Part shown: positions 1,857 through 21,041 of the stretch, piece after piece
How positions within the stretch are numbered: position 1 is the first letter of the stretch
Layout: the number at the start of each line of letters is the position of its first letter
IMG/VR virus record: IMGVR_UViG_3300027687_000092
Coordinates: 1 to 21,041 of that record
Direction: 5' to 3' (one strand)
Source of the DNA: a virus
DNA length: 21,041 bases
Translations under genes and position numbers: made by a program
The notes under the pieces: generated by a model
Database searches by the model: none
Told to the model about the DNA's origin: nothing
The model's input: the letters and a program-made list of their open reading frames with translations, nothing else

Positions 1857-2155
1857 CTGTTTTTGGATATTTCGTTGTATTCTGATTGCCATGCGTTCAT
1901 TTGTTCTTGCCAGAGTTGCATTGCCAGTTGTTTGAGTTGTTCACTATCTACACTAACTGGAGTATTGTAGTGGTCTTCTAATACCACTTCTCCTGTGCAT
2001 ACACTACACAACATTATTAATTCTGGAGAGGCTCGCCACATACCACCGTTGTGTGCAAAAAGCATTTTGGCTTGATATGTTTCACGCAGTACAATTCTTG
2101 CCTGTTGGTGATCAAATCTAGTTCTTATTTTTTTACTGAGTTTTTCTGTGTCCAT
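1853..2155 (-). CDS. 100-aa conserved hypothetical protein, first gene after the terminator
   Basis: This is a small, soluble, mostly helical-looking protein. It has a basic N-terminal half (KLSKKIRTRFDHQQARIVLR) followed by YQAKMLFAHNGGMWRASPEL, about residues 27-46, which looks like the conserved core. The C-terminal helix (SEQLKQLAMQLWQEQMNAWQ, about 71-90) is amphipathic. The single CxxC (CSVC, about 50-53) is too little to argue for a zinc site. It is the first gene downstream of the intrinsic terminator at 2172-2204 and starts only 17 nt beyond it, with a weak ribosome-binding site. Its stop overlaps the ATG of the first glycosyltransferase-like gene (ATGA). From memory, similar small proteins occur near tail-fibre genes of marine T4-like phages. 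A chaperone or assembly role is possible but unsupported here. Confidence 0.7.
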   Translation of the reverse strand: MDTEKLSKKIRTRFDHQQARIVLRETYQAKMLFAHNGGMWRASPELIMLCSVCTGEVVLEDHYNTPVSVDSEQLKQLAMQLWQEQMNAWQSEYNEISKNR

Positions 2156-3186: not shown

Positions 3187-3215
3187 TTCTTTTTAGTCCC
3201 TTTGTATTAGTATAT

Positions 3216-3245
3216 ATTATACGCTATTGCTTGTGGCGTCCTCAA
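3216..3245 (-). promoter_or_regulatory. Possible sigma70-type promoter ahead of the 320-aa gene
   Basis: On the minus strand a perfect TATAAT (3221-3216) follows TTGAGG (3245-3240; four of six matches to TTGACA) at an 18-bp spacing. The start codon of the 320-aa gene is about 30 nt further on. In AT-rich DNA a TATAAT can occur by chance, and the box overlaps a protein-like fragment, so this is only a candidate. Confidence 0.28.
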
Positions 3246-3350
3246 ATTGAGTCAGTCTCCTAAGACCTTAGTGTTCTTCTTTACCACGTCACCTACTCTT
3301 ACGATAGCTGGTTTATTGTTTCTGCTTGTATTTATAGTAACTATACGATC
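3217..3350 (-). pseudogene. Protein-like, startless and frameshifted fragment of a structural gene
   Basis: In the gap between the tail fibre and the 320-aa gene, one frame (3350-3252) reads IVTINTSRNNKPAIVRVGD then VVKKNTKVLGD and a TGA. The -1 frame (3267-3217) continues as LRRLTQFEDATSNSV and a TAA. Joined across the overlap at 3252-3267 they would make one plausible 45-residue segment. There is no ATG anywhere in the gap and no usable in-frame start. From memory, the wording resembles N-terminal or linker segments of marine myovirus structural proteins ('...VRVGDVVKK...LxxFeDvd...'). I read it as the decayed remnant of a fibre gene removed by module exchange. Chance coding-like sequence, or a 5' untranslated region, remains possible. 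Confidence 0.4.
3329..3336 (-). promoter_or_regulatory. T4-type late promoter box TATAAATA
   Basis: This is a perfect TATAAATA on the minus strand, starting 5 nt after the stop of the tail-fibre gene. It equals the T4 late consensus recognised by the phage sigma factor gp55 with the gp33/gp45 coactivators. By eye, ATAAATA occurs only here and at 4755-4761 on the minus strand, and nowhere on the plus strand. Transcription from it would start about 135 nt before the 320-aa gene, giving an unusually long leader that includes the startless fragment. Confidence 0.6.
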
Positions 3351-4754: not shown

Positions 4755-4762
4755 TATTTATG
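4755..4762 (-). promoter_or_regulatory. Late promoter box CATAAATA for the tail-fibre gene
   Basis: CATAAATA on the minus strand matches the NATAAATA late motif described for T4-like marine phages. It spans the TAA stop of the 220-aa gene. A start a few bases downstream would leave a roughly 20-nt leader containing the GGAG (4739-4742) of the tail-fibre gene, which is ideal geometry for a late transcript. Confidence 0.6.
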
Positions 4763-5420
4763 TTGCACTAAGATTAGTTAATGTTTGTATTCGCACTGTG
4801 TAGTCAATTTGTATTTGTCTATTCAATGATTTTTGAACAGGGTGAAAGATAACATGTGTTATCAATCTAAGTTCAGTTGCACTGCCGTTCCAAGTTTTTA
4901 ATCCTAGTTCGTCAAATACATAGTCGCCGTTAAAGTCTGTTGAGTTATCAAAAGCCTGTTGCCCCGATGGCTCACCATAGTCTAACAAACAACTTACTAG
5001 TATATCTGTATACACTTTACCAGTGGTATGTGTGACAGTTAAATTATTTCTACTAGTATCTGTATTTGCTGAACTATTATCGTCTACAACCTTAGCATAA
5101 GTTGGGTTGTATAAGTTGGCATTTTGTCCTGTTGTGTTAGGTGGCAAATACGTAATAACACCAGTTGGGTCAACACTACTACCACCATTACCAAAAGCCA
5201 TACTGTAAATTTGTCCAACTGTTTTATTGGCTAAACTGTTTGCCAACGCTTCGCTGATATTTTCATAGTGAATAGCATTTCTCTTGTCAACAATAACCTC
5301 GCCGCTATTAGGGTCAAAGATTTTGATATGCCCACTTATTGCAAGTTGGCCATTCTCATTAGGACGTTGTTCATCTAGTTCTTTATCCACTGTGGCCTCA
5401 TTGTTTGTTTCTTGTTCCAT
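4758..5420 (-). CDS. Conserved 220-aa virion structural protein
   Basis: The protein starts with an acidic, disordered-looking leader (MEQETNNEATVDKELDEQRP) and then a compact beta-rich domain. Its blocks are IKIFDPNSGEVIVDKRNAIH (32-51), a Gly-rich turn SMAFGNGG (73-80), YLPPNTTGQNANLYNPTY (91-108), YTDILVSCLLDYGEPSGQQA (137-156), VFDELGLK (168-175) and ITHVIFHPVQKSLNRQIQID (187-206). I recall this series ('FGNGG...YxPPNTTG...FDELGLK...HVIFHPVQKSLNR') from conserved unknowns in marine T4-like phage structural clusters. It lies 31 nt after the giant gene and 28 nt before the tail fibre, so a baseplate or fibre-attachment role is reasonable. An AAGG lies about 10 nt before the start. There is no sign of enzyme motifs. 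Confidence 0.75.
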   Translation of the reverse strand: MEQETNNEATVDKELDEQRPNENGQLAISGHIKIFDPNSGEVIVDKRNAIHYENISEALANSLANKTVGQIYSMAFGNGGSSVDPTGVITYLPPNTTGQNANLYNPTYAKVVDDNSSANTDTSRNNLTVTHTTGKVYTDILVSCLLDYGEPSGQQAFDNSTDFNGDYVFDELGLKTWNGSATELRLITHVIFHPVQKSLNRQIQIDYTVRIQTLTNLSAT

Positions 5421-5451: not shown

Positions 5452-8400
5452 CTAACTCTTAAGGAATAATGCCGCTGCAGTGGTCTGATCTTGCAGGGCT
5501 ATTCCGTTACTTGCTGTACTCACACCTTGTGCGTACATTACTTGAGCTTTAACTATTGATATATTAATTTCACTTCCAACTGCTGGTGCAACAGTAAAGG
5601 TAATTTCAACCTGTGTTGCATCAACTCTGGTTACTATATAATCAGTATCAGCAATCATTACTGCTCCGCCTACACTAACTCGTACTGCTTCGTCTAGTTC
5701 GGTACTGTCTAATGTAGTTGGAACTACAATTCCTGTTCCAAAAAATATTCTAGTAGTGCCGTCGCCAATATTAGTTGTATCTGTTGTTGTTTTTTCTTGG
5801 TACACAGTAGGTAGTTGCTCTCCTGGGCCTATATCACTAGCCGCAACGCCTATAATATGAGACATTGCACTTGTGCCGGCTACTCCTCTACGTAACCCAC
5901 TAACTGTATTATTACTCGTATCTCTTGTTCTATATGTAATTCTTTCTGCACCAATCATTACCTGACCAAATATATTTGATCCTAGATTTGGTTCACTGAG
6001 TTTGCCTACATCTTCAAAATATATAACATCTGCACTAGTAGTTAAATCTTGTATTAACTTAGTAGTGTTGGTGGTATTCAATCTCAACAACTTTTGATTA
6101 CCAAGCATATCTTGAAAGATACGGAAATTTAAACTATTTGGCACGACTGTATTAGTAAACATTGTTACTGCAAGTACATCTGCTGCTCCAAGAATACTTC
6201 CGCTTACTGTAAGAATACTAAATCCACTAGTGCCAGTGCTTATACTAAATCCAATTGTATCAGATAAACGAGCACCGTTTAGCGTTACTTCTAATCTGCC
6301 AGAATTTTCAATTAGTCTACCAAGTGCAAAGTTGTTGGTTTGAATAGTTGATCCAACTGTCTTATCAAATTCAGTTGAATCATATGGATCTGAATCAAAT
6401 GTTACACCAGTAGTAATACCTTCGGTAGTTGGTCCAACATATACCTTTGTAAGTATATTTTGTTGTGCAGTATCGTTGTAGGTAGAAACTGCAAACGGTG
6501 CGTCTGGAATAGCACTAACTCTTAAATTTAACTGATCGCCAAGTACAGTATAATCAGCTTCGGTAGTAGTAAATATTTTAATACTTGCACCATTAGCTGG
6601 CTGGCTATTAGCGTTAAACGCTACATACCTATCACTACTACCGTCATATGTACTTAAATTCCAGTTAACTGCAAGATCACTTTGTACACTATCAATATAT
6701 ACCAAAACATCATTATCAGCAATAAGGCTCTGGTTTGTTCCAGCAGTTGTACTTAGGTAATAAGGACCTAGACTTGATCCATCGCTGGTATATTCGATAC
6801 CTTCTGGTGGACGGAGCCTAAGGCCATTACGCTCAACTGTCATGTTAGGAATGTTGGTTCCTTGTAAACTGTTTGTTAAATTATCTTGTAAACTTGATCC
6901 ATCATATGCAAAGTACTGAACTTGTGGTGTACTCCAGGAATATTGCACAGGAGTTGTTGCACCAAGAGCAACAATTGTAACCCAATCTGTTGCAGTGTAT
7001 GTGCTTGTAAATGTAATTGCAGTTGAAAAAGTTCCTGATACTGCAAACGAATAATCTGTAATAATCTCTCCGTTAACAAAGATAACCATCTCGTTTATTT
7101 CAGTAAAGGTAACTGGAATTATTTCAACATCTGATGATATTGTGTTTCCAACTATACTTTCTTTATATAGTTGTGATCCGCCGCCAATTCCAAAAACTTG
7201 CAAGTCTACTGTATCTCCAACGCCAATTTGTGAATCAGAGTTAGTAATAGTTATAGTTTTTGTTACCCAATTTACAGTATAGTTTCCTGTAGGAAAAATT
7301 ACCTGTCCGCCATTGAGATTAATAAGTTCTACACCAACCGGATGTAGGATAAGACTTCCAAAGTCAATGGTTGTGTTAACACCAGTATACACAACGCTTG
7401 TGCTGTTAATACTAAATCCGTGGCCATCATTATTCCAATCGCTACCTGGTCGAGTATAAACTTTTAAATCTAATGTATCAAATTCACTACCAGGAATTAA
7501 TTCTTCAGGAGCATGCGAACTATATGTGTCAATAAACCCACCACCTACAACGTTAATATCTGTAGCTCTTGTACCTAAGTAAGTGTCTGTAAACGAGCTT
7601 TCATATATTACATCAAGTATACCTGGATCGTATGTTGGTAATCCTTCTGGTCCAAAGTCTATGTTATCATATGGATTGATATCAAAATTTCCAACATCAA
7701 ATCCTGTGTTTTGATTAAAATTTGGTCCTTCAACTTGTACTCCAGGATAGTCAATTCCAGACATCACTTGTGCTAGTTCACGCCCTGGTTCGTTGGGCTC
7801 GGGTGTGTACAATCCAATTGTTCTATCTGCACCATCTAACGTATCTGGACTAACCACAGTGTAGTTTTCTGGGTCAAATGCAGTACCACTTGTAAAGTTA
7901 GTTGTTACGTTGTATACCTGTGGTAACGAAACATTAATTACTCCAACAGTCGGTACAGGAAAACGTACTAATTGATTTGCAGTATATGCAGTATTTGCAG
8001 TCCAATCAACAACCTGACTTGTGTATGTTATTCTATCATATTTGACAGTTGTAGTAAAGTCACGCACTTGTTGTGGTTCAAGAACTGCTATTGCACTAGC
8101 ACCTGTGCCATTACCACCTGATATTGTTAGTGTTGGTGTTGTTATATAACCACTACCTGCAGTCAGTAGTGTTATTCTTATGACCTCACCAGCAGTATTA
8201 ACAACAGCAGATAGAGTTGCCTGTATTATTGCATCACCAGTTACTACTACTTGCGGAGCAACAGTATATCCTGATCCAGAGTTAAGAACTGTTACACTCT
8301 TAAATATTAGTTTATAGTTGTTATACCACTGGTTCCATGGAAATGTTTGCCAAACAACACTAGTACTTGGTACTGCACTTAGTGATTTTGGATTTGCACT

Positions 8401-11400
8401 ATCATCAAGTATTGGCGATACAAATTGTCCTCTAAGACTATCGTAGTATGCTGGTAAGTCAAAGTCTGTTATGCTACCCTTGTACGTATCTTCACCTTCG
8501 TAGCGTAGATTAAATTCTCTTACCTGAACATGATACGGTTTAACTTCGTTAATATATTCACTAACAAAGTCTTGGTTATCACGTCTAAAAATTGGGTATT
8601 CAATTAAGTCACGTATTTTATGATTAACATCAATCAAACTAGTCTTGAACAACCAATCTGGTGCAGGTTGCTCGCTCATTATAAATTCAAATGTTAGTAC
8701 TAATAATTCGTTTCTAAACAATCTTAAGTTAGTTGTAAATATTTCTTGATTTAATGCTTGAAGTATTTGTCTTGTTTCGATATTTGGAGCCTGATCAAAA
8801 CGTTGTGCATCAAAAACTTCAACATCAAACCCAAAGTTACCATCCGCATAGTTCCAAATAGTACTGTCAATTGCAACTGTACCGTCTTCTAAGAAAACTC
8901 TTGTCCATTCACTGGTTGTTGTGCTATACTGATATACTTCTTGCTTGCCAAAACTATTTGCTTGTACAGTTGCCCATGCACCGTCTAATACGTTTGTAAG
9001 TGCTAGTAGATCACTGTATACTTTTACATCATAAGTGCTGGTGTTTGCACCACTATAGGTTGTAAAATCTGCATTTATACCATTCCAATTTACATAACTC
9101 CAGTATAGTTTTGTATCATAGTTTTGTACTCTTGACAGTAACAGTTTTTGTTCTGCTTGCACAGTATAAATTGTCCATAGTCCCTCTTGTGTACTATCAC
9201 TTGCTATAAGATATTTGTAACCCACTGCTACTTGACGTAAGTCTTGATATGTAAGTTCAGCGTAGGTTAATAAACGCTTGTCCCATGCACTACTTGCTGA
9301 AGTTGGTTCTGGTTCTTCACTATTAAGTAACTTAAAGCTCTTGCTATCAGATATTGGATATAATTTCATTATCTTATTAGCACGAGTCATATAGTTTTCG
9401 AGTGCAAGGAATCTGTTAATAAAGAGACTCTGTCTTGGTCGGAAACTAACACCATACTTGTCTGCAACACTTAATGTAGCATCTGGTACAAGGTTACCAA
9501 GTGTGTCTTCTCCACAATAACTATCTAAGAATTTTCTATAAAGACCTGCACCTAAGAAACTTTTTGCATCACCAACAGTAATTAAATCATATTCGCTATG
9601 CACATTATCATCATTTGCAATCTTATCAAATTCTACATGTAGTATTGTATCTTTTGCTGAAAATAAACTCCTACAATTATACAAACTTACTGTACTCGGA
9701 CTAATAGCAGCAGTATATGATATTCCGCTTGATCGTGGATCAGAAATATATTGGGCAATACCACTTGAACTTAGTGTTTTATTTGAACTTACTGCTGTTA
9801 GTCCTTTAACCCAATAGTAATAGTAGGTAATAAATGTACCTGCACTATCAAGTTCACTGGTTATTACATAACTTGTAGTAGTATATACTGTTCCTTCGCC
9901 TGTGTATGATTCTGGTGCTACTGTATTCTTAGTCCATTGATAAATGTCTACTGACGATCCGTCAAACAACTGTCCCCAACGACGTGCTTTGTATTCGATA
10001 GTATCTTGATGATAGTCGATAAAACGTACAGTTGATAGGTCCCACCATATTTTACCTAGGTAAGTAGTGGTCCATTGTGAACCAAAGTTGTTTACAGTTC
10101 CTGTGTTGTAGGCAGCTGGATCAATACCACCTGTATAATCAATATTTGCTTGTGCGGCTCCTAATATCTTACCTTGTAGAGGATCAATAAAATCTAAATA
10201 GGTAGTAACCTCGTTGCTAACTTTGTTATATGTAAACACACTGTTAAGCAATGCGGCATTGACAATTGGTTGCTGTGTATAAATTGCTTTCCATGCTGAT
10301 TCTTTGTTAACATTTGTTAACTGAGTCACTCTACCAAAATCACCAGAGCTATCATTGAGATCATCATTTGGAGCACCAACTAATAATATACCATCATAAT
10401 AGTCAACTGCTGAACCAAATTTATCTAAACTTGTCATGCTAGTATCGTAAATTTGTTGTCCAAATACAAACTTGCCTGGGTTAGTAGCACTTGAATTTGC
10501 TGAATTCAAGTAATTGTAAGTGTAAGCTACTCCTGATTGGTTCAATGGATCAATAACTGTTGTGCTTCTTGAATCAAAGTAAGTTGTGTTGGTATCAAAT
10601 GTTGTTGGCAAACTTGCAGTTGCATCTGGAGCACCAACTACCAATGTAATTGCATCACTATCAATTTTTAGACTATTACCAAAATGTCCGTATTCCTGTG
10701 CAATCGGTGATACAATTGTTTGTGCAAAAATTATAGGTGTTAATCCGAGAGTTGCAAATGCAGTTCCTACTCCTGGGGCAACTTCTAACTTTATGTATTG
10801 TTCAACTGCTTGTACATTATCAAGCGTAATCTGTAATGCACCGCCTACGCTGGCTGCAGTTATGTTTGGTAAGTTTGCAGTTATTATATCAGTTACTAAA
10901 CTAGCAACTGTTGTTCCTGTAAGTGTTACATAATAGTTGTTTATCCTGATACTGTCAGTAGCAGTCAATACTGGATTGGCTACAGTACCTGTAATGTTTC
11001 CAAATAATCTTGCTTGGTTGATCCATCGATCAACACTACCACCTTGGGGAACAATTGTACTATCATTTGGCTCACTTATGTATAGACTACAATTAGTAGA
11101 ACACATATCTACCACTTGACCAAAGTTGTAACTTTGTCCAACTGTAGGAGAATTAATAGTTTGTACTAACCTAAACGTATTTGTTTCAATTTCTACAATG
11201 TCACCAATGTTAAGTGTGTATGGGTTTGTTGCAGTTCCAATTGTGGTTGTAGTTCCGCTAAAACTAAACTCAGCATTGTTATTTTGCTCGGTTGGTATTA
11301 GAAATGTTCCGTTAACTATTACAGTTACCGGACCAGTTGGTGTATCAGTGGTTGTAAAATTTTGTGTAGTAGTTGAAGCAGTTGTTACTTGAAAACGCTG

Positions 11401-14400
11401 AACACTTCTATCGTAAATGTATACTTTACCAGCATCTGTTGTAGTAATTGCTCCTACAGTAACTGATGCTCCAGGAGCTCCTATAATAAGCTGTCTTCCG
11501 TCAGTAGTAGTTGAAATACTTTGTCCTATTAGATCTCCAACACTGCCTGCTATAGTTATAGTTGCTACAAAATCCCAATGTGTTTTTGCATCAATTAAAA
11601 GTGTTCCACTGTTGATGGCCACAAGCAAAGTTACTGTGTTTGCAGTAAACGTGTAATCAGCAATCGGACGTAACAATGCACCATTGTAGTATACTGAAAA
11701 ACTGTAAATATCTGTTACAGGAAATACTGTAGCAGTACTGAATGTACTTGTGCTAACAGTTGGTAGATACGTAACGCCTTGCAACCTTGTAATTCTAATT
11801 GTATCGTTTTCGTTAGGTGCAGTTGCAAACCTAACAACTTGTTGACTAGCTAGATTTGTTTGTACTGTATAAGCCGCTCCTGCAGTTTGTGAAACATTAT
11901 TTCGACTAACACCTATTTGTGTTTGAGCAGTTGCATTAACAGCACTTACAACTATAGTTCCTGCTATAATAAAATCTGTAGTTGTGCCATCTCCAGTAAA
12001 GTTAAGTGTCTGCGATTGTACCTCAACTTTGTTGTATGCCCAAACATAATCACTACTTGATGTAGCAGTTGATGCACTTATATACAACCAACGCTCATTA
12101 TCACTGACTGCTACATCTTGTCCAAAGTTGTCAGTATCGTTTGTTCCTGTGTTAAACAACTGTGTTTGTGTGTACTCGCCGTTTGCACTGTTACGTTTTA
12201 TTGATAGTGCATATCCTTTGTTGCTATCACTAGCAGGAGCACCTGTTACAACCCATTCAGTATTTCCAACACTTAAACTTGTGCCTGTACCTACAAAACC
12301 AGTGGCAGTAGGTGACATAATTGTTAATTCTTTATATTCAAGAGTGTCAGACTTGTTATAACAGTAAATTCCACCTTTGCCACTTGCATTTCCTGGAGCA
12401 CCAATTGCAAGACCTTGTCCAAGTAGTCCTTGCTCGATTGTTGTTCCAAATAGATCATTTAATACAGGAGTATCAGCATCTATTTCTGTTGGTGTGCCAA
12501 AGGGATTGATTTTTTGAAGTACCGCCCAGTTATCATTGCCATAATTATCTACCCATGCTTGGTTTCCTGGAACAATGTTGTTTGCAAAACTTAAATTAGC
12601 AACATCACTTGCTTGTGCAACACGCACACTCTCAAGAATAAATGAACGCCCATCTCCAGTAACAGATACAGTTTCACCAGGTAGACTAAGTGTAATTGTT
12701 ACTGTTCTTAAAGATGGAACAGTACCAACAATATAAGCGCCATCAACTGATGCATTAAAGTACTTAATGATTATTCTATCATTAACAGATAATCCATGAG
12801 GTACATCAAAAGTTATAGTACTTGTTTCATTTAGATTATCAACCACCAAGATGACACTAGCTGGTACTAGATTGGTTCTGTATATGTTCCAATCATATGA
12901 GTTTGCTTTGGCTACCCAAATATTTGTACCAAGTGCAATGGCATCTAAATTAGCAAGTACATTTGTTAGATCATCATAGTTAAAAACTTTAATATCAATA
13001 TCGTCATAGTTTACATAACCAGCTGACGGCAGGCTAACATCTTCCGGAATAGTTGTAACTGTTGGCAAAATATTCTTATTTGTAATTTTATAACTTTGTT
13101 TCCAAATATTTTCAACCAATACTGTTTGATTAGCAGTTGATACTTCTTGTGGATCAATAACTGCAATGGTACTTGGATTACTTAATAATTTACTTTCGTC
13201 TGTGCGTAGTTCAAAATAACTTCTGTTTGCATTAGCACCATAGATACCACGCTGAATTGCCCAGTTCTCAAAAATTTCATACTCTGCTTCTTCTTTGCCA
13301 AGATTTGCACTTGTAAATATTTCTGCAGCCTGTAATGTGCCTTTTGTTCCAAGAAACTGTGAATACAACCCAGCTTGCGAAATATCATCTAGGTTCAAGT
13401 TTTGCATGTACTGTCTTGGACGAAAACCAATAAGTCCTAGTCCTAACAGGGTTGAATCACTTTCAAGATTGGCAGTGTGTATATCATAATTTTCACGTAG
13501 GCTGTCTGCTTTGGTTGCAAGGTTAGGCAATAATCCAGTTTGTATTTGTGCATAATCACTCTTAATCCAATCAGCAAAAACAAACGTTTCACTCGGTGAC
13601 AATAATCTAGTTGCACTCCAGTATGCATTTTTATAAAGTACAATTTGTCCTTTAGTAAAGGATGTGTTTGCTACCCATTCCTTAATATTATCTTGATTAA
13701 GAATAAAACCTTGTGCATCAAGTGTACCGTTCCAGTCAAAAACTGTATTACCGTTTAATAATAGTCTATTTTGTCTTGCACCAGTTATTGGTTGATATAT
13801 CAAATCGTTAAAGATACTAACGTTATCAAATACAATAATATGTTCATATGAAGTAAACCTTGCATTAAGAAAACTAAAAGTCTGATTGTTAACTCCAATC
13901 AGTTTGAGTTCATTGTCTAGTCTTTCAACGGCATAATCTTTGCCTAACAATGGGCCAAAGTTTTGATTTAACATTACATCATTGATATTTTCGTTGGCTA
14001 GACTTTCAACAACACTGTTTGGTTTTTCTAATTTTAAAACATTTGCAGCAGGGTTAAGATTAATAATACTTCCTGTAATCCAATCTTGTCCTACCCAGTA
14101 TAGGAATTCATTTGCCATCTGAGTCCAGTTAAGAATAACTCCATTCTCTGTACTATCAAAAGTTAGCCCTTGTTCAATAAGCAATTGACCGTAACTAACT
14201 AAAAAATCAACCACTGCACTTGCAGTTGTAAACACATAACCATAAGGAACTTGAACCACATTTTTAGTAAAAGTCTCTGGAATACGAACTGTGTTTCCGT
14301 TTACTGTTATTGTACTAAAAGTTCCAGCAATGGTACTTTGTAATATTTCAAAGTAAGGTTTAGTAATCGAATAACCCGACACTGACCACCCACCGCTAGT

Positions 14401-17400
14401 TCTCTGGACTGTGATACTTGAATACTGTACCTCAGCAAAACTTGGATTTTGATAGAGAAATAGTTGGTAACTTTCATCGGGTAATAGCAAACTACTGTTA
14501 AGACTGTTTGGTGATGACTTTTCAGAAAATATTTTCAAGTATCCTTGATCACTAAATGAAGCCATTCGATAACACAATCGAATATCCATATTTGATAAAG
14601 TGGACTTTAGTGCAGTGGTACTGTCTAAACCTGTAACTCTATTGTAATCAACAATAAAGTTGATGTAACTATTCTTAATTGTTCCATTACCGTATACAGT
14701 TACTACACTTGGGTCAATTCGAAATCTGTTATTATACAGATATTGATAAAAGTCTGTATTATATTTCCATAGATCTCTGTCTGCAAATAACGAAAAGTAT
14801 TTTGCAGGTTTTGTTAGTGCTAGTAATCTTTGTATTGCAAACGGATAGTAACTGCTACGTCTCCAGGAATCTTCAGCAGGTGCCATATCTCCTGCTACCC
14901 AGGACTTTACAAAGCTATCTATATCGTAACTTCCAACAATCGAATCCATTGGCGATACAAGGTTACCTTGTGAATCAGTTGGAATACACTCTAATAACTG
15001 TGGACGAATATATTGTTTTCTTATTACATTTCCTGTTGGATAAGCAACAATACCCTGGGCCATGTCATTCCATAGAACAGTATTACCTGATGTATATGGA
15101 GCTGGTCCGTATGTTGTTTGCCACCAAGTTGGCTGTACAGTTAGCCCAACCATTTCCCATGGACGAGTATGAGGCGAATCAGTATCATATAGCTGGAAGT
15201 ATATTCCTCTCCAGAAACCTAATAAAGGATTTCCAGATAATCTGTTTTCACTTTGACTATAGTTCCATGTAAATTGATTGTCTTCGATATAAGTTTGGTT
15301 TTTATAAGGAACACGGTTGGCACCAACCCATGATAAGAAACTAACATTTAATATATTGTTAACTTCAGTTAGAGTGTAATCAGTTGTTCTAAACTGTCCT
15401 GGAATAACATCAACTGCTTGAAGCGGTGGATTGTACCTTTCAGCTTCATTTATCTTAATATTATTGTAAATTCTCTTTTCAAATTCTAATAAAACAGCAT
15501 TTCTATAATCGCCTGTTTCGAATGCTACAGTTAAACTACCATCATGTCCTTGTATAACATTTGTTGGTGTTACGTAGGTATTGTCTAAAAACTCTTGCGG
15601 ACGATATATGTTATATAACCCCATCATACTAGGCGTTGCTGGTACATAACTTGCATAAGTTGTAGCATATTCGTTTATGGTGATTATATCACCAATGTTT
15701 AGTGTTATCTGTGTACTGTTGATTGTAATTCTTGGACCATCAGTTGCTACAGTGTACTCATATCCGTCTCCAACAAGTATAGTTTGTATGCCAGTGCTCT
15801 TAGGAGTATAATATACTAATATACCTTTGTAGTTTGCAGAGGTTAAGTCATAACTGTAAAGAGTATCAAATACATAGGTTGTAATTGGTGTTATTGTGTA
15901 TACTGTAGTTTCAAAGGTGTTGCTATTTGGAATTGCATCTGTCCAATAAAAAGGACTAGATTCAGTTTTTCCTGCATTGATTCCTAATAGTGTACCATCA
16001 AGTATCTGTGCAGTAGTTTTGCCTTCCCAATCATTAGTTGCAACATAATCTAAAATTTTGTTTTTAGTTTTGTTATATTCAGAACTATTAAATTCTATAG
16101 CACGGAAAAATTCAAAGTCTCTTCCATTAATAAAATTTGTCATCAATGTTACTGGTGCACTTTGTTGTAGTATTAGATCTCCAAAAGGAACAACATTACC
16201 TAAATCTCGTACGTTATTGTTACCGTGTATTTTACCTGTAAAGTTTTCTAAGTTTTGACAAATACTTTCATAATGTGTACGCACTGTACCTAGGGTAAAG
16301 CTCTTGCTATTTTCATTCATAGCGTTTGATTCTAGGTTTGATGGAATAGTATAAAATGCTATACTACTTGGGCTATCACTAAGCACCTGAGCTTCAACAA
16401 TAGCACCATTAACTGGTACTGTATTAGGTTGTCCTAACTCATTAGGATTAAAAGTAATTACTGTTACATTATCGCTATTGGTTGCATATGTATATGTGTT
16501 TGAAAGAACAAACTGACCTTCAACAAATACCTTAACTGGAATTTTTGATGTATCACTTAAAACTGCAATGTCTAATACCAGTGGAACTCCGGTATAATCA
16601 AAACTGAAACTTTGTCGTTGTGTATTTGTTTCAAATGATGTTTGCCATCCAAGCAACTTATCAAATGTGCTTATAGTATTATACTGTCTAACTGTTCCTG
16701 TGTCAATGTTTTTTGTAGCACTGACCGTTCCGTTAACATATATAAATGTATCAACATATAAGTTGTTGTCAAAAACAATATCACCAACGTTAGCAATAGT
16801 TAGATATTTCAATGGTTGATCAATAACAGTATCTGTAACACCGGTTCCAACTGCATAACTAAAAAGTTTTGATCCTTTAAAAGTTGTACTTGGGTATACA
16901 GTTGTATCACTAAAACTATAACCACTGCTATCAAATACATCAAACAATGGTGCTTGGTTAACACTAGTTTTTTGTTGTCCTGATATCCAAGTTGTTCCAT
17001 TAAACCAATAGGACTTTCCTTGTTCGATAACACCTGATGTTATTATAACATTTGTGTTTGTTGGAACATCGGGTGTGGTTAAACTTGCTGGTTGCAAATC
17101 AATAACATCCACACTACTATCTTCAAAATCAACAAAACTCACAGTATAAATTTTGTTGCGTACTTCTGCATCTATGTCTGCAGCAAATATAACTCTTGAT
17201 CCTGCAACAAAATTGTAACCATCTACACTATATCCAATGGTACCGTTTATGTTTGAAAATGCATCCGTTTCAGCAAAGTCAATGATGTCTACTGCAGGAG
17301 TTGCCAATGTTCCATAATTAAATAGTTTTAGGTTTTTTCTAAATTCAAGTATTGGACGTTTAGCTCGGTTGTTATTATTAATCACTAAAGGAACATTGTT

Positions 17401-19065
17401 ATAGATAGCAGTTGCTTCGAGTACCGCAATATGGAACCACCTATTACCTCTGCTCCAAGCATTTTGGGCTATACTAGCTCTGTTTATTATCATGTAATCT
17501 TGTACAGTTGGAGCATTTGCGGTAGCATCAAAACCACCATCATCAAATGATTTACTATCAAACGGTACAGTTGCACTGACTGTATATGTTTCTGGTGTTA
17601 TAAAGTCTGTTACCAACATTAACTCAATAGCAGTACCAACACCTTCAACATAGTATTCTAGATTCTCATAACTTGCTGGAACTACTGCACCAATGAATTG
17701 TATCTTGAGTCCATTTGTAAAAACAACACCGTTTGGAGATGTATAGTTTGTTTTACCGATAATATCGTCAACTCTGAGATCTGATGCATTTGCTTGATCA
17801 ACAAGACGGATAACACCAAAGTTTGTTTCATCACTCTGATCTTGATAATAAAGCACATCAAGGTTAGCAGTAATTAATGGTTGACGTTCAAATGTACCTT
17901 CTGCATTTTTATACCAAGTAACTCCAGCATAGTCTGTACCATATTGTATCAAAGTTTTGCTTAGGTCAGCAATAGTTCGAACTCTTGTAAGTTCCATAAA
18001 CGGACGTAGCGGATTTGCATAGTTAAAGTTTATTCTCCATTGCACATAACGCTCAGCATCAGTTGCTAACGGTACACTATTATCAAATCCTGCATTTGGA
18101 ATCCCCGGATTATCTTGGTCAAAAAGTGTGTCATCAAAAGGAGTAAAAGTTTCCCAACCTAAGTTAGTATCTGTTGTAAAGATTAATGTGCGATTTTGTA
18201 AATCAGTAATACCATCTATACCGTTTGTGTTAGTTGCTAAGAAGGTATCAACAAATTGATTGTTTATATCGCTAAATTTAAGTGTATCTTCAACAAGATC
18301 AGTTGAACCAATATCTGTTAATGTAAAGAAAAAGTTTTGTGCAGTATTCGAAGGAACTGTGAATACAACTGTACCAACGTCATCACCATTGTTAGCAACA
18401 CCTAATACTTGTCTTGAACTTTGATTTGGTTGTTGAGGAAGTACTCCTGATGTTCCAGGAACACTTTGTATCCAAAAATTACGGCCAAGAGCGTTAACAT
18501 CAAATGTGTATTCGCCTTGACGTACAAATGTTAATGTAGGTAATGCTCCTGCTTCTCCTGAAAACGTATAACCGTTAGGTGTATAAGCAACATCAAATGT
18601 GTCACGAATTGGTACTGTGTTAGCAAAAACATCAACACTATTTGGTCCTGCTGGCACCCAATAATATTGACTAAAGTTTACATATTTGTCGTAGTCGACA
18701 AAAGGATCAAAACTATAATGCTCACTGTCAAAGAGTCTGTCACCACGTGTAACGTCTGCACCTTGTAATTCGAGGCTATCAATTATTCCAGGATAGGTTA
18801 TTGCATTTGCAACAGTATTAGTGTTTGGTGTAAGTTGCACCACTCCAGGTTCAAGTTGATAATCAGTTCTAGTAGCAGTTGGTTCTAATACATAACTATC
18901 AGATGCAGTAACACCAGGGCCAATCTTACGACCAATATAACCTTCAGTTGGCTTTAACTTTGGGTTCTGTGTAAGTTGGTCAAGTGTACTACGAAGAAGT
19001 TGCTTGTTAGCAGGAGTTTGAAATATTTCTGGTAGAAAGTCTTCTGAGCGAATTCTTTTAGCCAT
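5452..19065 (-). CDS. Giant 4537-aa multidomain virion protein (baseplate/adhesin type)
   Basis: One open frame of 4537 codons encodes a mosaic protein. Residues 1-150 form a conserved head: FLPEIFQTPANKQLLRSTLD, YIGRKIGPGV and TRTDYQLEPGVVQLTPNTN. A conserved stretch near 1150-1215 includes VIQGHDGSL and EKRIYNNIKINEAERYNPPL. A carbohydrate-binding-like module lies at 1797-1833, and a seven-repeat FG-GAP region at about 2205-2920. A conserved aromatic-rich section (about 3000-3560) includes FRPRQSLFINRFLALENYM. Two GSGY repeats (about 3588-3652), a second carbohydrate-binding-like module (3688-3738) and beta-sandwich repeats to the C-terminus follow. No signal peptide or membrane segment is seen. 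The start is three nt after the upstream stop, with a GGAG 11 nt away. It follows a gp6-like gene, where T4 carries the wedge and fibre-attachment genes 7-10, so a baseplate-peripheral role is inferred. The alternative is a tail-fibre or tape-like protein; its lack of long helices argues against a tape measure. Confidence 0.85.
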   Translation of the reverse strand: MAKRIRSEDFLPEIFQTPANKQLLRSTLDQLTQNPKLKPTEGYIGRKIGPGVTASDSYVLEPTATRTDYQLEPGVVQLTPNTNTVANAITYPGIIDSLELQGADVTRGDRLFDSEHYSFDPFVDYDKYVNFSQYYWVPAGPNSVDVFANTVPIRDTFDVAYTPNGYTFSGEAGALPTLTFVRQGEYTFDVNALGRNFWIQSVPGTSGVLPQQPNQSSRQVLGVANNGDDVGTVVFTVPSNTAQNFFFTLTDIGSTDLVEDTLKFSDINNQFVDTFLATNTNGIDGITDLQNRTLIFTTDTNLGWETFTPFDDTLFDQDNPGIPNAGFDNSVPLATDAERYVQWRINFNYANPLRPFMELTRVRTIADLSKTLIQYGTDYAGVTWYKNAEGTFERQPLITANLDVLYYQDQSDETNFGVIRLVDQANASDLRVDDIIGKTNYTSPNGVVFTNGLKIQFIGAVVPASYENLEYYVEGVGTAIELMLVTDFITPETYTVSATVPFDSKSFDDGGFDATANAPTVQDYMIINRASIAQNAWSRGNRWFHIAVLEATAIYNNVPLVINNNNRAKRPILEFRKNLKLFNYGTLATPAVDIIDFAETDAFSNINGTIGYSVDGYNFVAGSRVIFAADIDAEVRNKIYTVSFVDFEDSSVDVIDLQPASLTTPDVPTNTNVIITSGVIEQGKSYWFNGTTWISGQQKTSVNQAPLFDVFDSSGYSFSDTTVYPSTTFKGSKLFSYAVGTGVTDTVIDQPLKYLTIANVGDIVFDNNLYVDTFIYVNGTVSATKNIDTGTVRQYNTISTFDKLLGWQTSFETNTQRQSFSFDYTGVPLVLDIAVLSDTSKIPVKVFVEGQFVLSNTYTYATNSDNVTVITFNPNELGQPNTVPVNGAIVEAQVLSDSPSSIAFYTIPSNLESNAMNENSKSFTLGTVRTHYESICQNLENFTGKIHGNNNVRDLGNVVPFGDLILQQSAPVTLMTNFINGRDFEFFRAIEFNSSEYNKTKNKILDYVATNDWEGKTTAQILDGTLLGINAGKTESSPFYWTDAIPNSNTFETTVYTITPITTYVFDTLYSYDLTSANYKGILVYYTPKSTGIQTILVGDGYEYTVATDGPRITINSTQITLNIGDIITINEYATTYASYVPATPSMMGLYNIYRPQEFLDNTYVTPTNVIQGHDGSLTVAFETGDYRNAVLLEFEKRIYNNIKINEAERYNPPLQAVDVIPGQFRTTDYTLTEVNNILNVSFLSWVGANRVPYKNQTYIEDNQFTWNYSQSENRLSGNPLLGFWRGIYFQLYDTDSPHTRPWEMVGLTVQPTWWQTTYGPAPYTSGNTVLWNDMAQGIVAYPTGNVIRKQYIRPQLLECIPTDSQGNLVSPMDSIVGSYDIDSFVKSWVAGDMAPAEDSWRRSSYYPFAIQRLLALTKPAKYFSLFADRDLWKYNTDFYQYLYNNRFRIDPSVVTVYGNGTIKNSYINFIVDYNRVTGLDSTTALKSTLSNMDIRLCYRMASFSDQGYLKIFSEKSSPNSLNSSLLLPDESYQLFLYQNPSFAEVQYSSITVQRTSGGWSVSGYSITKPYFEILQSTIAGTFSTITVNGNTVRIPETFTKNVVQVPYGYVFTTASAVVDFLVSYGQLLIEQGLTFDSTENGVILNWTQMANEFLYWVGQDWITGSIINLNPAANVLKLEKPNSVVESLANENINDVMLNQNFGPLLGKDYAVERLDNELKLIGVNNQTFSFLNARFTSYEHIIVFDNVSIFNDLIYQPITGARQNRLLLNGNTVFDWNGTLDAQGFILNQDNIKEWVANTSFTKGQIVLYKNAYWSATRLLSPSETFVFADWIKSDYAQIQTGLLPNLATKADSLRENYDIHTANLESDSTLLGLGLIGFRPRQYMQNLNLDDISQAGLYSQFLGTKGTLQAAEIFTSANLGKEEAEYEIFENWAIQRGIYGANANRSYFELRTDESKLLSNPSTIAVIDPQEVSTANQTVLVENIWKQSYKITNKNILPTVTTIPEDVSLPSAGYVNYDDIDIKVFNYDDLTNVLANLDAIALGTNIWVAKANSYDWNIYRTNLVPASVILVVDNLNETSTITFDVPHGLSVNDRIIIKYFNASVDGAYIVGTVPSLRTVTITLSLPGETVSVTGDGRSFILESVRVAQASDVANLSFANNIVPGNQAWVDNYGNDNWAVLQKINPFGTPTEIDADTPVLNDLFGTTIEQGLLGQGLAIGAPGNASGKGGIYCYNKSDTLEYKELTIMSPTATGFVGTGTSLSVGNTEWVVTGAPASDSNKGYALSIKRNSANGEYTQTQLFNTGTNDTDNFGQDVAVSDNERWLYISASTATSSSDYVWAYNKVEVQSQTLNFTGDGTTTDFIIAGTIVVSAVNATAQTQIGVSRNNVSQTAGAAYTVQTNLASQQVVRFATAPNENDTIRITRLQGVTYLPTVSTSTFSTATVFPVTDIYSFSVYYNGALLRPIADYTFTANTVTLLVAINSGTLLIDAKTHWDFVATITIAGSVGDLIGQSISTTTDGRQLIIGAPGASVTVGAITTTDAGKVYIYDRSVQRFQVTTASTTTQNFTTTDTPTGPVTVIVNGTFLIPTEQNNNAEFSFSGTTTTIGTATNPYTLNIGDIVEIETNTFRLVQTINSPTVGQSYNFGQVVDMCSTNCSLYISEPNDSTIVPQGGSVDRWINQARLFGNITGTVANPVLTATDSIRINNYYVTLTGTTVASLVTDIITANLPNITAASVGGALQITLDNVQAVEQYIKLEVAPGVGTAFATLGLTPIIFAQTIVSPIAQEYGHFGNSLKIDSDAITLVVGAPDATASLPTTFDTNTTYFDSRSTTVIDPLNQSGVAYTYNYLNSANSSATNPGKFVFGQQIYDTSMTSLDKFGSAVDYYDGILLVGAPNDDLNDSSGDFGRVTQLTNVNKESAWKAIYTQQPIVNAALLNSVFTYNKVSNEVTTYLDFIDPLQGKILGAAQANIDYTGGIDPAAYNTGTVNNFGSQWTTTYLGKIWWDLSTVRFIDYHQDTIEYKARRWGQLFDGSSVDIYQWTKNTVAPESYTGEGTVYTTTSYVITSELDSAGTFITYYYYWVKGLTAVSSNKTLSSSGIAQYISDPRSSGISYTAAISPSTVSLYNCRSLFSAKDTILHVEFDKIANDDNVHSEYDLITVGDAKSFLGAGLYRKFLDSYCGEDTLGNLVPDATLSVADKYGVSFRPRQSLFINRFLALENYMTRANKIMKLYPISDSKSFKLLNSEEPEPTSASSAWDKRLLTYAELTYQDLRQVAVGYKYLIASDSTQEGLWTIYTVQAEQKLLLSRVQNYDTKLYWSYVNWNGINADFTTYSGANTSTYDVKVYSDLLALTNVLDGAWATVQANSFGKQEVYQYSTTTSEWTRVFLEDGTVAIDSTIWNYADGNFGFDVEVFDAQRFDQAPNIETRQILQALNQEIFTTNLRLFRNELLVLTFEFIMSEQPAPDWLFKTSLIDVNHKIRDLIEYPIFRRDNQDFVSEYINEVKPYHVQVREFNLRYEGEDTYKGSITDFDLPAYYDSLRGQFVSPILDDSANPKSLSAVPSTSVVWQTFPWNQWYNNYKLIFKSVTVLNSGSGYTVAPQVVVTGDAIIQATLSAVVNTAGEVIRITLLTAGSGYITTPTLTISGGNGTGASAIAVLEPQQVRDFTTTVKYDRITYTSQVVDWTANTAYTANQLVRFPVPTVGVINVSLPQVYNVTTNFTSGTAFDPENYTVVSPDTLDGADRTIGLYTPEPNEPGRELAQVMSGIDYPGVQVEGPNFNQNTGFDVGNFDINPYDNIDFGPEGLPTYDPGILDVIYESSFTDTYLGTRATDINVVGGGFIDTYSSHAPEELIPGSEFDTLDLKVYTRPGSDWNNDGHGFSINSTSVVYTGVNTTIDFGSLILHPVGVELINLNGGQVIFPTGNYTVNWVTKTITITNSDSQIGVGDTVDLQVFGIGGGSQLYKESIVGNTISSDVEIIPVTFTEINEMVIFVNGEIITDYSFAVSGTFSTAITFTSTYTATDWVTIVALGATTPVQYSWSTPQVQYFAYDGSSLQDNLTNSLQGTNIPNMTVERNGLRLRPPEGIEYTSDGSSLGPYYLSTTAGTNQSLIADNDVLVYIDSVQSDLAVNWNLSTYDGSSDRYVAFNANSQPANGASIKIFTTTEADYTVLGDQLNLRVSAIPDAPFAVSTYNDTAQQNILTKVYVGPTTEGITTGVTFDSDPYDSTEFDKTVGSTIQTNNFALGRLIENSGRLEVTLNGARLSDTIGFSISTGTSGFSILTVSGSILGAADVLAVTMFTNTVVPNSLNFRIFQDMLGNQKLLRLNTTNTTKLIQDLTTSADVIYFEDVGKLSEPNLGSNIFGQVMIGAERITYRTRDTSNNTVSGLRRGVAGTSAMSHIIGVAASDIGPGEQLPTVYQEKTTTDTTNIGDGTTRIFFGTGIVVPTTLDSTELDEAVRVSVGGAVMIADTDYIVTRVDATQVEITFTVAPAVGSEINISIVKAQVMYAQGVSTASNGIALQDQTTAAALFLKS
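7852..8004 (-). other. Second carbohydrate-binding-like (CBM5/12-type) module in the giant gene
   Basis: Residues about 3688-3738 read WTANTAYTANQLVRF, then a 14-residue insertion, then VYNVTTNFTSGTAFDPENYT. The W..NTaY..gqlV.....vY.vt......f....y order follows the small CBM5/12 chitin/cellulose-binding fold, although the final Trp is replaced by Tyr. Function is inferred from the pattern only. Confidence 0.4.
8108..8305 (-). repeat. Two tandem GSGY-type repeats in the giant gene
   Basis: Two related units lie about 40 residues apart (residues about 3588-3612 and 3629-3652): VTVLNSGSGYTVAPQVVVTG and ITLLTAGSGYITTPTLTISG. Both share the pattern (I/V)-T-(V/L)-L-x-x-G-S-G-Y-x-x-x-P-x-(V/L)-x-(V/I)-(T/S)-G. 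These short beta repeats are common in phage and bacterial surface proteins and probably form consecutive turns of one beta domain. Confidence 0.75.
10306..12453 (-). repeat. Seven FG-GAP (integrin-alpha-like) beta-propeller repeats in the giant gene
   Basis: Seven repeat cores fall in residues about 2205-2920. They are LLGQGLAIGAPGN (near 2220), GTSLSVGNTEWVVTGAPAS (near 2270), FGQDVAVSDNERWLYISAS (near 2325), IGQSISTTTDGRQLIIGAPG (near 2525), FGQVVDMCSTNCSLYISEPN (near 2665), FGNSLKIDSDAITLVVGAPD (near 2810) and FGSAVDYYDGILLVGAPNDD (near 2895). All follow FG..v......l..gaP, usually followed by G.vy.y. Seven is the number of blades in an integrin-alpha propeller. Spacing is irregular because beta-sandwich segments (about 2353-2630) are inserted between blades three and five. 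The fold is a family-based inference. Confidence 0.75.
13567..13677 (-). other. First carbohydrate-binding-like (CBM5/12-type) module in the giant gene
   Basis: Residues 1797-1833 read WVANTSFTKGQIVLYKNAYW, then SATRLLSPSETFVFADW. This fits the W...t.Y..Gd.V.y.g..Y.a........p.....W pattern of CBM5/12 modules, with Trp at 1797 and 1833 and an aromatic YW pair between. These modules bind chitin-like or other polysaccharides and are frequent in phage tail proteins. Confidence 0.55.
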
Positions 19066-19068
19066 AAC

Positions 19069-21030
19069 TTATACTACTCCGCTGTTTGATGCAGTTCGCA
19101 ATTGACTACTAGTTAGTGCATCAATTACTTCAACATCGTTGACTGTGGCAGAATTTACAAATATCTCATTTGCTTGACTGCGAATTTCGTATAAATCACC
19201 AAATGACTTTAATGGATCCACTGGAACAAGAACTACTGTACTAATAATACTTCCTAGTTGATCGTGCAAGTAAGCACTAAGCTCTGAAAAGAAGAACGTG
19301 TCTCCAAAGTCCCAATTGTCAATAGTAAAATATGTATTCATACTTGACACAACTTGACTTTTAATTTCACTAACGCTCGCAGTACTCGACGGATTCTTAA
19401 CACACTTGAGTGTTGCCCTTAGTTCGACTGCTGCTTTGGTTCCAAATAATGGTTTAAAGGTTGCACTGTTTAAAATAATGTTATCACTGATCATTTTGTA
19501 TTGGTCAAGTGTTGAGTAACTTGTAGTAAGTTCATCAATAGTTGGTTTTGCAGGCTCTGGTACAGTTCCTGTTGAATCAGTAACATAATTTTGATATGCA
19601 ATATAATACGACTGTGTAACAAGATAGATGTCAATAATGTTAGTGGTTCCTGGATCAATTCTTCTACTTAACGGTGCATTGTGTCTATACTGAAAGTACA
19701 ATCCTTGTCGACCAACATATGTTATATAACCAGTAACTTGTGCAATAGTTCTAAGTCCATTATACGCAACTGTTAGTTGATAAAATTTTGCATCAGTGTA
19801 CGCATAAAATACTTGCTTGTCTGGGTACTCACTTTTTACTAATTCTATAGCAGCCTGGGTTGCTAGTGTACCATTTACCACACCACCTGCAAGTGGAAGA
19901 TATCGTTCAAGATTATCAAAATCAATCGTTTGTTGTAGGTAAATTCTTTTGTTATTTGGATTAACTAGCGGTGCAACTAAAGTTTGAAAGTAGTCTGGGT
20001 TGTCTGGTACACCGTCGTTATCTGAATCTTTGTATGATATTCTAACACGGAAGTCATCTATAAATCCATCTGTTTCAACGGGCTGGTCAATAATATCAAG
20101 TACTTCATCGCTGTTTAGTGTTGCACTTGAATCCGGTAGGTTATTGGTTTTTAAGACGTTAATAAAGTCATTAATAACTGTTCCTGTTTTAGGATCATAA
20201 ACTTTTTGTGTTCCGTCATAAAAGAATCTTGTTTCAAGCACACTAGCCCAGAAACGTTGTAAACTTCTTGAACTAACTGTGTATGTTACTCCGTCTGTTT
20301 CAAATGCTACCAACCAGGAATTATCTTGTCCGGTTCCTGTTGTGTTTTGTGCATTTGCAAGACTAAATGTTATTGCTGAATTCAAATTAGTTGCTGTAAT
20401 AACATACCAAGTTCCGGTTAGGTTATTGTATCCAAGTCCAAAATTTCTATAAAGTTCAATTTGCTCACGCATGGTTGTTTCAATTGCAGTTGGCAAGTTA
20501 GTTATAAAATTTGGAATTACTTCTGTTGGAACTGCAAGTGTTGGAATAAAATTATTAATTGTTACAGGACCTGTTCCATCAGCATTGTTACCAACACCTT
20601 GATTGGTTCCGTCAAGTTCTAAAGCTGACACAGTTGCCCACAATACCATTTTGTCTCCAGGCAGAGTAGGAGATCCTGCAATTAATCTGTTAAACTCATT
20701 GAAGTAAAATCCTGTAGGAGGTACAAACTTAATTAACCCACCTAACGCAATATATTTTTTATTATCACTTGCTTGTGGGCCAACTGGTGCTGGTGCTCCG
20801 CTTGAAACAAACTTAAAATATCCAGTAGTTTGGTTGTTAGCAGTTGTACTTTGGCTCCAGTTTAAGTTTAAATTTGTTAGACTTGGGCGAAGAAAATTTT
20901 CATAGTAAAATTCTTGCATACCACGACTTGCTAGTACTGGCTCAACTTGATTTACTATAACATCTGTAATGTCATTTTGATCAATAAACGTAAATGTAAA
21001 ACTTGGAACAGCAGTGTTTTCGTATATCAT
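19069..21030 (-). CDS. Baseplate wedge-like protein (gp6/baseplate-J type), possibly 5'-truncated
   Basis: The 653-aa frame ends with a domain (about 535-640) reading AAVELRATLKCVKNPSSTAS, SEIKSQVVSSMNTYFTIDNW, FGDTFFFSELSAYLHDQLGS and NEIFVNSATVNDVEVIDALT. The series of a conserved strand, an amphipathic helix, 'd.fy.seL...i.......v..v.v' and a C-terminal strand matches the C-terminal part of T4 gp6 and other baseplate-J proteins, as I recall them. At about 333-346 is a DSDNDGVPDNPDYF calcium-type loop. Residues 415-475 (FYAYTDAKFYQLTVAYNGLR...) form an aromatic-rich beta section. It is immediately upstream of the giant gene with a 3-nt gap. The start at 21030 is 11 nt from the window edge and the same frame stays open to the edge, so the true start may lie upstream. 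An alternative is a different wedge component of similar fold. Confidence 0.6.
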   Translation of the reverse strand: MIYENTAVPSFTFTFIDQNDITDVIVNQVEPVLASRGMQEFYYENFLRPSLTNLNLNWSQSTTANNQTTGYFKFVSSGAPAPVGPQASDNKKYIALGGLIKFVPPTGFYFNEFNRLIAGSPTLPGDKMVLWATVSALELDGTNQGVGNNADGTGPVTINNFIPTLAVPTEVIPNFITNLPTAIETTMREQIELYRNFGLGYNNLTGTWYVITATNLNSAITFSLANAQNTTGTGQDNSWLVAFETDGVTYTVSSRSLQRFWASVLETRFFYDGTQKVYDPKTGTVINDFINVLKTNNLPDSSATLNSDEVLDIIDQPVETDGFIDDFRVRISYKDSDNDGVPDNPDYFQTLVAPLVNPNNKRIYLQQTIDFDNLERYLPLAGGVVNGTLATQAAIELVKSEYPDKQVFYAYTDAKFYQLTVAYNGLRTIAQVTGYITYVGRQGLYFQYRHNAPLSRRIDPGTTNIIDIYLVTQSYYIAYQNYVTDSTGTVPEPAKPTIDELTTSYSTLDQYKMISDNIILNSATFKPLFGTKAAVELRATLKCVKNPSSTASVSEIKSQVVSSMNTYFTIDNWDFGDTFFFSELSAYLHDQLGSIISTVVLVPVDPLKSFGDLYEIRSQANEIFVNSATVNDVEVIDALTSSQLRTASNSGVV

Positions 21031-21041
21031 ACCATCGCTGG

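Follow-up and report, generated by a model that had tools for sequence, protein, structure and literature searches.

Genes and features of the window

The window, the whole stretch of DNA analyzed here, is a complete IMG/VR virus record of 21,041 bases and is most likely a fragment of a genome. It contains no detected tandem repeats or tRNAs. The genes and protein modules on which the analysis bears are as follows.

19069–21039, minus strand: gp6-like baseplate wedge gene whose 5' end lies outside the contig (PHROG 10646, gp6-family profile)
5452–19065, minus strand: giant virion structural protein of 4537 amino acids, PHROG 10938 (hmmscan, E 8.7e-286), under purifying selection
18616–19065, minus strand: conserved N-terminal domain, residues 1–150 (aligned in all seven cultured homologues and 36 other IMG/VR rows)
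16372–16611, minus strand: beta-sandwich unit, residues 819–898 (seeded unit profile)
13555–13695, minus strand: CBM5/12-like module (chitin-binding type 3 fold), residues 1791–1837 (Pfam match below cut-off, plus fold)
13288–13431, minus strand: gp7-core-like segment, residues 1879–1926, with KGT at 1908–1910 (cyanophage gp7-core comparison)
10297–12486, minus strand: seven-blade FG-GAP cassette with three interblade beta-sandwich units, residues 2194–2923 (blade and unit profiles)
Minus strand, residues 2205–2238, 2260–2291, 2313–2346, 2512–2553, 2647–2678, 2794–2833 and 2882–2917: FG-GAP blades (seeded blade profile)
Minus strand, residues 2364–2431, 2441–2490 and 2562–2630: beta-sandwich units inside the cassette (seeded unit profile)
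8341–10296, minus strand: conserved core region, residues 2924–3575, with a VKPYH motif at 3508 (aligned in cultured homologues)
8077–8298, minus strand: GSGY module, residues 3590–3663 (tblastn)
5539–7143, minus strand: C-terminal region with four beta-sandwich units, residues 3975–4509 (seeded unit profile)
4758–5420, minus strand: conserved 220–amino acid protein that follows the giant gene, PHROG 11259 (matched in 60 phage records, in 59 of them at ≥80% coverage)

The giant frame begins with ATG and has no internal stop in its 4537 codons; for the base composition of the window, with bases taken as independent, the chance of such a stop-free run is about 10^-128. Complete frames of 4521–4630 amino acids are present on ten other IMG/VR contigs (loci L010, L011, L012, L013, L015, L016, L020, L021, L022 and L023), and their products align with the window protein over the whole chain at 46–88% identity. 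Given that these frames lie on ten other contigs, an assembly join is excluded. Two further loci, L008 and L009, match the giant protein at 93 and 89%, respectively, up to their contig ends. In comparisons with L010 and L013, dN/dS was 0.06–0.19 in each 500-residue block, with values of 0.09 and 0.31, respectively, for the last 37 residues, whereas in the comparison with L022 five of the ten blocks were uninformative because synonymous sites were saturated. The gene is thus under purifying selection over its full length. The first-pass annotation had described an unbroken frame and had named an assembly join or an internal stop as what might undo that description; the frame proved intact and neither defect was found. 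In the relative L040, the giant frame is in two parts (6494–15223, 2909 amino acids; 15297–23603, at least 2769 amino acids), owing to a sequencing error or to a genuine break.

The gene downstream of the giant, encoding the 220–amino acid PHROG 11259 protein, has a counterpart with 56% identity in Atu_ph07 and lies close behind the giant gene in both Phosso and Atu_ph07; its product is likely a further baseplate part. The minus-strand gene at 3341–4729 encodes a 462–amino acid protein whose two ends match PHROG families that include "virion structural protein" (E 2e-9) and "tail fiber protein" (E 7e-4); it is probably a fiber or appendage protein. Adjacent genes at 323–1892 (minus strand) encode proteins of 256 and 269 amino acids, the first belonging to PHROG 1903 and the second to no family, and their sequences gave the impression of glycosyltransferase-type proteins.

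A widespread protein family of ordinary length for its kind

The match of the window protein to PHROG 10938 ("virion structural protein") comprises four stretches, the best of which covers residues 806–1792. A tblastn search with residues 1–1000 gave matches in 57 of 50,697 phage records, with the 40 listed being 284–490 kb in size, and the 2537 middle residues likewise matched 57 phage records, including, among the 30 listed, the 86-kb phiKp_21. Coliphage Sharanji, with E. coli K12 MG1655 as its host, is also among the listed matches to residues 1–1000. The last 1000 residues matched four phage records over 7% of the query length. Relatives were encoded in all 62 candidate IMG/VR stretches in one scan and in at least 588 of 598 in another.

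Homologues in cultured phages comprise 4449 (Atu_ph07), 4555 (Phosso), 3857 (PA5oct), 3333 (PBECO4), 3807 (SCTP-2), 3771 (Vibrio phage 2.275.O) and, from annotated coordinates, 3340 (CBB) amino acids, and AP-J-162 has a "structural protein" of 4455 amino acids (PMC11242549). Stop-to-stop frames in the 43 records searched extended over 3648–6753 amino acids, with the shortest abutting its contig end, so that open frames of PHROG 10938 relatives span 3333 to 6753 amino acids overall. With cultured relatives of 3333–4555 amino acids and IMG/VR relatives of up to 6753, the 4537 residues of the window protein, which the first-pass annotation had regarded as exceptional, are mid-range for the family; the Phosso chain is longer.

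Labels in the listed phage records were "structural protein," "virion structural protein" or "hypothetical protein," with a chitin-binding type-3 domain protein appearing once. Among the titles and abstract openings listed in literature searches outside subscription journals, none describes the family as gp7 or a propeller in it. The family is known and abundant, yet vaguely annotated and barely described; the new points are the propeller cassette and the assignment to gp7.

The giant gene lies directly behind gp6

The frame at 19069–21039 matched PHROG 10646 ("baseplate wedge subunit") with an E of 6e-108. It spans positions 480–1138 of a 1139-position gp6-family profile, and because coverage starts at position 480, the 5' part of the gene lies outside the contig. 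Comparison of the family gp6 with T4 gp6 by hhalign gave an E of 1.9e-5 over 312 columns. Among the 68 loci with at least 1500 nucleotides of upstream sequence (L021 was excluded because its contig starts too near), a gp6-family frame ends between -1 and 91 nucleotides upstream of the giant gene in 67, although 41 of the 68 contributed to the profile and so match partly by construction. The placement after a gp6-like gene that had been noted from the window itself is supported.

The sole exception was Salicola phage SCTP-2, which has no recognizable gp6 or gp25 before the giant gene. Its giant is preceded by a 3096–amino acid protein (L005, 5609–14899) without gp6-family similarity, and gp25 is far away. 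A gp25 match was present in all 15 records, 14 of them above the cut-off, and the cultured phages examined, SCTP-2 again excepted (six of seven), have gp25 immediately ahead of gp6.

According to PMC6300606, TssE-TssF-TssG of the type VI secretion system corresponds to P2 gpW-gpJ-gpI and to T4 gp25-gp6-gp7, with a (gp6)2-gp7 heterotrimer. Given this correspondence and its location directly behind gp6, the giant gene occupies the gp7 slot of contractile tails.

Conserved regions and modules of the chain

Parts of the protein conserved throughout the family are approximately residues 1–150, 420–1060, 1139–2070 and 2924–3575, with the final 30 residues of the N-terminal domain being aligned in just part of the cultured homologues. 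The C-terminal region (3975–4509) is poorly conserved between clades.

A single type of beta-sandwich unit is present in seven copies at E < 1e-3 and in eight at 1e-2; the propeller holds three of them and the C-terminal part holds four. Seven hand-picked pieces of the window protein served as seeds for the profile, so that seven of the eight copies are seeds. The place near residues 819–898 is occupied by a unit in many longer relatives as well. The GSGY module yielded tblastn matches in four phage records, two of them from cyanophages, and is common to structural proteins of other phages; it is located elsewhere in the chain of the Atu_ph07 and Phosso homologues.

For residues 1791–1837, the Pfam CBM_5_12 match (E 0.003, 18 bits) was below the cut-off of 26.2 bits. 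A Pfam scan of the 1120–2090 region revealed the same weak match in 16 of 36 members, with any other family being found in at most two. Structural comparison of this module by VIA-align gave a Z of 7.4 for Milano baseplate chain 8fqc_P1 (rmsd of 0.9, 45 aligned residues) and of 3.9–6.1 over about 45 residues for chitinase and chitin-deacetylase chains, all of these values being below the Z of 8 under which a match is not conclusive. Sequence and fold thus point the same way and suggest a CBM5/12-like domain.

An AlphaFold2 model of residues 2912–3575 was good locally (mean pLDDT of 80.9, 79 rows). Foldseek gave no match with an E of <0.1 for this model, and gp7 was not among the candidates listed, which carries no weight against a gp7-like fold. 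Its VIA-align matches (maximum Z of 5.3, to tail, tailspike and SH2-like structures over about 50 residues) were treated as noise. A Pfam scan of the 2900–3620 region in 34 members found no family in more than one.

The first-pass annotation had pictured a mosaic chain composed of a head, a propeller, a sugar-binding-like module and many beta-sandwich units. Its mosaic nature was substantiated by the FG-GAP cassette, the CBM5/12-like domain and the seven or eight beta-sandwich copies, the last counted with seeds from the window protein itself. The propeller is described below. For the sugar-binding-like module, the fold agreed with the proposal whereas the sequence score did not reach the cut-off, and the "head" matched nothing.

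A predicted seven-blade FG-GAP cassette detected in some lineages

Pfam FG-GAP_2 matched one stretch, residues 2880–2908, at 29.3 bits against a cut-off of 23. A blade profile seeded with by-eye picks from the window protein itself detected seven blades, in agreement with the propeller proposed initially, and it detected seven likewise in nine relatives with complete frames. The same seeded profile detected no blade in any of the seven cultured homologues or in L025 and L026. The cassette site comprises 118–193 residues in PA5oct, Vibrio phage 2.275.O, PBECO4 and CBB, which is too short to accommodate a propeller. It comprises 416 residues in SCTP-2 and about 1100 other residues in Atu_ph07 and Phosso, and a diverged propeller in one of these three inserts could have been missed by the blade profile.

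In L025, 19 residues stand in place of residues 2194–2923 of the window protein, with the flanks aligning at 31 and 44% identity. A midpoint-rooted tree of conserved columns, for which support values are not given, grouped L025 with the clade of the window protein. A sister clade of longer proteins, some with frames cut by contig ends, carries an insert of 645–915 residues at this site with two to four detectable blades. Given that L025 groups with the window's clade and that the sister clade also has an insert, the simplest reading is that the cassette was lost in L025. With the cassette present in the window's clade and 19 residues in its place in a lineage related to it, the family provides a natural experiment on the role of an integrin-type propeller in a phage tail.

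Synonymous divergence (pS) from L010 was 0.55–0.66 in residues 2001–3000 (10066–13065), compared with 0.35–0.46 in the remaining 500-residue blocks, a hint of recombination in the vicinity of the propeller cassette.

A segment with weak resemblance to the gp7 core

When a 44-row family alignment was divided into 22 overlapping segments, profile comparison of these with T4 gp7 gave no match. With T4 gp7 as a query, none of the 13 jumbo-type records was found, nor was the cyanophage, and neither approach revealed similarity to T4 gp7 along the full length of the chain. Searches of the PDB by sequence and profile, for which the complete protein and three alignments served as queries, yielded nothing credible (best E of 0.024), and alignment A1 matched nothing in the whole Sf-FP1, P-SSM2 and T4 records.

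Cyanophages provide a bridge between the window family and T4. The gene order is gp25, gp6, a 3048–amino acid virion protein, a 175–amino acid protein and gp8 in S-PM2, and gp25, gp6, a 3335–amino acid giant, a 177–amino acid protein and gp8 in Sf-FP1, with gp6 and gp8 of Sf-FP1 being verified by hhalign (E of 8e-40 and 2e-7, respectively). The two giants are encoded at 8464–18471 of L260 (3335 amino acids) and 5073–14219 of L341 (3048 amino acids). An alignment of 65 rows built on the first 420 residues of the Sf-FP1 giant (SfFP1_81) matched the T4 gp7 core with an hhalign E of 2.5e-4 (95 columns, probability of 43%), or 7e-5 after trimming, and gave no match with gp6, gp8 or gp10. The cyanophage giant is labeled just "virion structural protein" despite this match.

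When the window family was divided into 80 sliding segments and these were compared with the cyanophage core, the best three scores (26.0, 26.0 and 23.3) all fell on residues 1879–1926 in one register, and the best score away from that position was 17.3. Segment 1845–2010 scored 25.7 with an HHalign probability of 14% over 47 columns, a score equaled by none of 100 column-shuffled decoys (top decoy, 22.9). Merging of the cyanophage and T4 gp7 cores increased the score to 28.6 (pairwise E of 7e-4; best elsewhere, 17.9). Pairwise E-values for the gp7 core were 0.0007–0.006, uncorrected for the 80 segments, and the match depends on the cyanophage bridge. The KGT triplet in this segment is present in all 44 aligned family rows, including all seven cultured members. 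The structure model of the surrounding region (residues 1120–2090) was poor, with a mean pLDDT of 55 (36/37 rows), so that the absence of gp7 among its fold candidates carries no weight. The KGT segment therefore appears to resemble the cyanophage and T4 gp7 core weakly but specifically, and to judge from this sequence comparison the giant protein is likely, but not proven, to be the gp7 orthologue.

Several other candidate correspondences were rejected. An N-terminal "LPEIF" helix was compared with cyanophage gp7, but 9 of 60 decoys were as good or better. SfFP1_84 (2758 amino acids) was considered for the gp7 slot; the "baseplate wedge" gene ahead of it proved to be gp8-like, gp6 is SfFP1_80 and the slot is occupied by SfFP1_81, and comparison of SfFP1_84 with the window family gave no match. 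The 220–amino acid window protein showed no similarity to the 177–amino acid cyanophage protein (E of 1.1).

Presence of relatives in virions

Giant proteins of relatives have been shown by others to occur in purified virions, at a published coverage of approximately 8%. CBB_236, whose identity as the homologue of the window giant was confirmed at the gene level, was detected by mass spectrometry (21 unique peptides, 7.72% coverage; PMC5259590), and the annotation of PA5oct gp355 reads "ESI-MS/MS." PMC7247149 reports gp245 of phAPEC6 (381.88 kDa) with 17 peptides and 7.6% coverage, lists gp244 "baseplate wedge" before it in the table and assigns phAPEC6 and PBECO4 to the same species; from position, size and this shared species, we infer that gp245 is a homologue. 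Coverage this low is compatible with either a full-length or a processed chain. Together with the position after gp6, the virion data bear out the original view of a baseplate-associated, multidomain chain.

Interpretation and alternatives

Our results are probably best explained by a gp7-type baseplate wedge protein of giant size, made by a T4-like jumbo phage that has the Rak2-like phages, Atu_ph07 and PA5oct as relatives. In each of the six wedges, a conserved scaffold (residues 1–150, about 420–2070 and 2924–3575) would join the gp6 dimer, clamping it and tying the wedges into the baseplate as does T4 gp7. Between and behind the scaffold parts, the chain would have grown by the addition of cassettes: the FG-GAP propeller, the CBM5/12-like domain and the beta-sandwich repeats. 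We infer that these cassettes lie on the exterior of the baseplate and project from the wedge, where they may meet the cell surface or carry fibers. Placement in the gp7 slot gives the family a testable role and ties jumbo phages, cyanophages and T4 together.

Modules such as propellers, CBM5/12-like domains and beta-sandwiches are common in surface-contact proteins. Their presence in the giant, the failure of both the segment comparison and the T4 gp7 search to give a direct match to T4 gp7, and the separation of the giant gene from gp6 in SCTP-2 are all consistent with a different possibility: a giant adhesin or receptor-binding protein anchored to the baseplate beside gp6, with gp7 itself missing or unrecognized elsewhere. 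We consider this possibility unlikely, given that 67 of 68 loci have the giant immediately after gp6 and that the gp7-core-like KGT segment is retained in 44 of 44 rows, beyond what an accessory adhesin would need. The fusion of peripheral baseplate functions envisaged in the first-pass annotation, taken here as gp7 joined to gp8, gp9, gp10 or gp11, fared less well and appears improbable. Phage-Gp8 was above the cut-off in only one of 15 records, T4 itself, and matched none of the 13 jumbo-type records, so that the function of gp8 could have moved into the giant chain. However, comparison of T4 gp6–gp12 with the 22 overlapping family segments gave a highest HHalign probability of 3.4%, with none of the segments resembling gp8–gp12; gp11 and gp12 were represented by single sequences, and the control comparison of the family gp6 with T4 gp6 worked (E of 1.9e-5). 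In addition, matches to the gp9/gp10 N-domain lie elsewhere in 8 of the 13 jumbo-type records (E of up to 0.1; three above the cut-off), and a gene annotated as gp10-like exists separately in PA5oct. A fusion of T4 baseplate proteins is without support from sequence, and a gp7-like protein enlarged by inserted cassettes fits better.

That the giant frame is an assembly artefact, or that it encodes a polyprotein cut before assembly, is very improbable. The coverage of about 8% in mass spectrometry of homologues and the two-part frame of L040 would be compatible with such an explanation, but full frames are present in seven cultured phage records and on ten other contigs, and purifying selection acts throughout, both of which argue against it.

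If the gene encodes a gp7-type wedge protein, the wedge clamp might also be a platform for exchangeable surface modules, which would bring host contact inside the baseplate trigger, beyond separate fibers. This extension is tentative and, in our estimation, rather doubtful. Were it true, propellers and strings of beta-sandwich units would be inserted in the wedge protein itself, and host contact would not depend on separate fibers alone.

Comparison with known systems

The closest counterparts of the window protein are those of the Rak2-like jumbo phages and their kin (PBECO4 gp538, CBB_236, PA5oct gp355, Atu_ph07 AUZ94962 and Phosso XYS97451), which belong to the same family, occupy the same place after gp6, share the conserved N-terminal, middle and 2924–3575 regions and are virion-borne where tested. 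They differ in that no FG-GAP blade was detected in them (none in the seven scanned), have zero or one beta-sandwich unit and comprise 3333–4555 amino acids. The cyanophage giants S-PM2p084 and SfFP1_81 resemble the window protein in their position in the gp25–gp6–giant order and, weakly, in the KGT core segment, whereas their gp7 core is near the NH2-terminus, their length is 3048–3335 amino acids and their sequences otherwise show no credible similarity. T4 gp7 shares with the window giant the slot after gp6 and, weakly and by way of the cyanophage bridge, a core segment with the KG[IT] helix, but it consists of only 1032 amino acids, has no cassettes and gives no direct sequence match. With FG-GAP (integrin-type) seven-bladed propellers, the window protein shares seven FG-GAP-like blades predicted from sequence, including a Pfam match above the cut-off, but its run of blades is broken by three beta-sandwich units.
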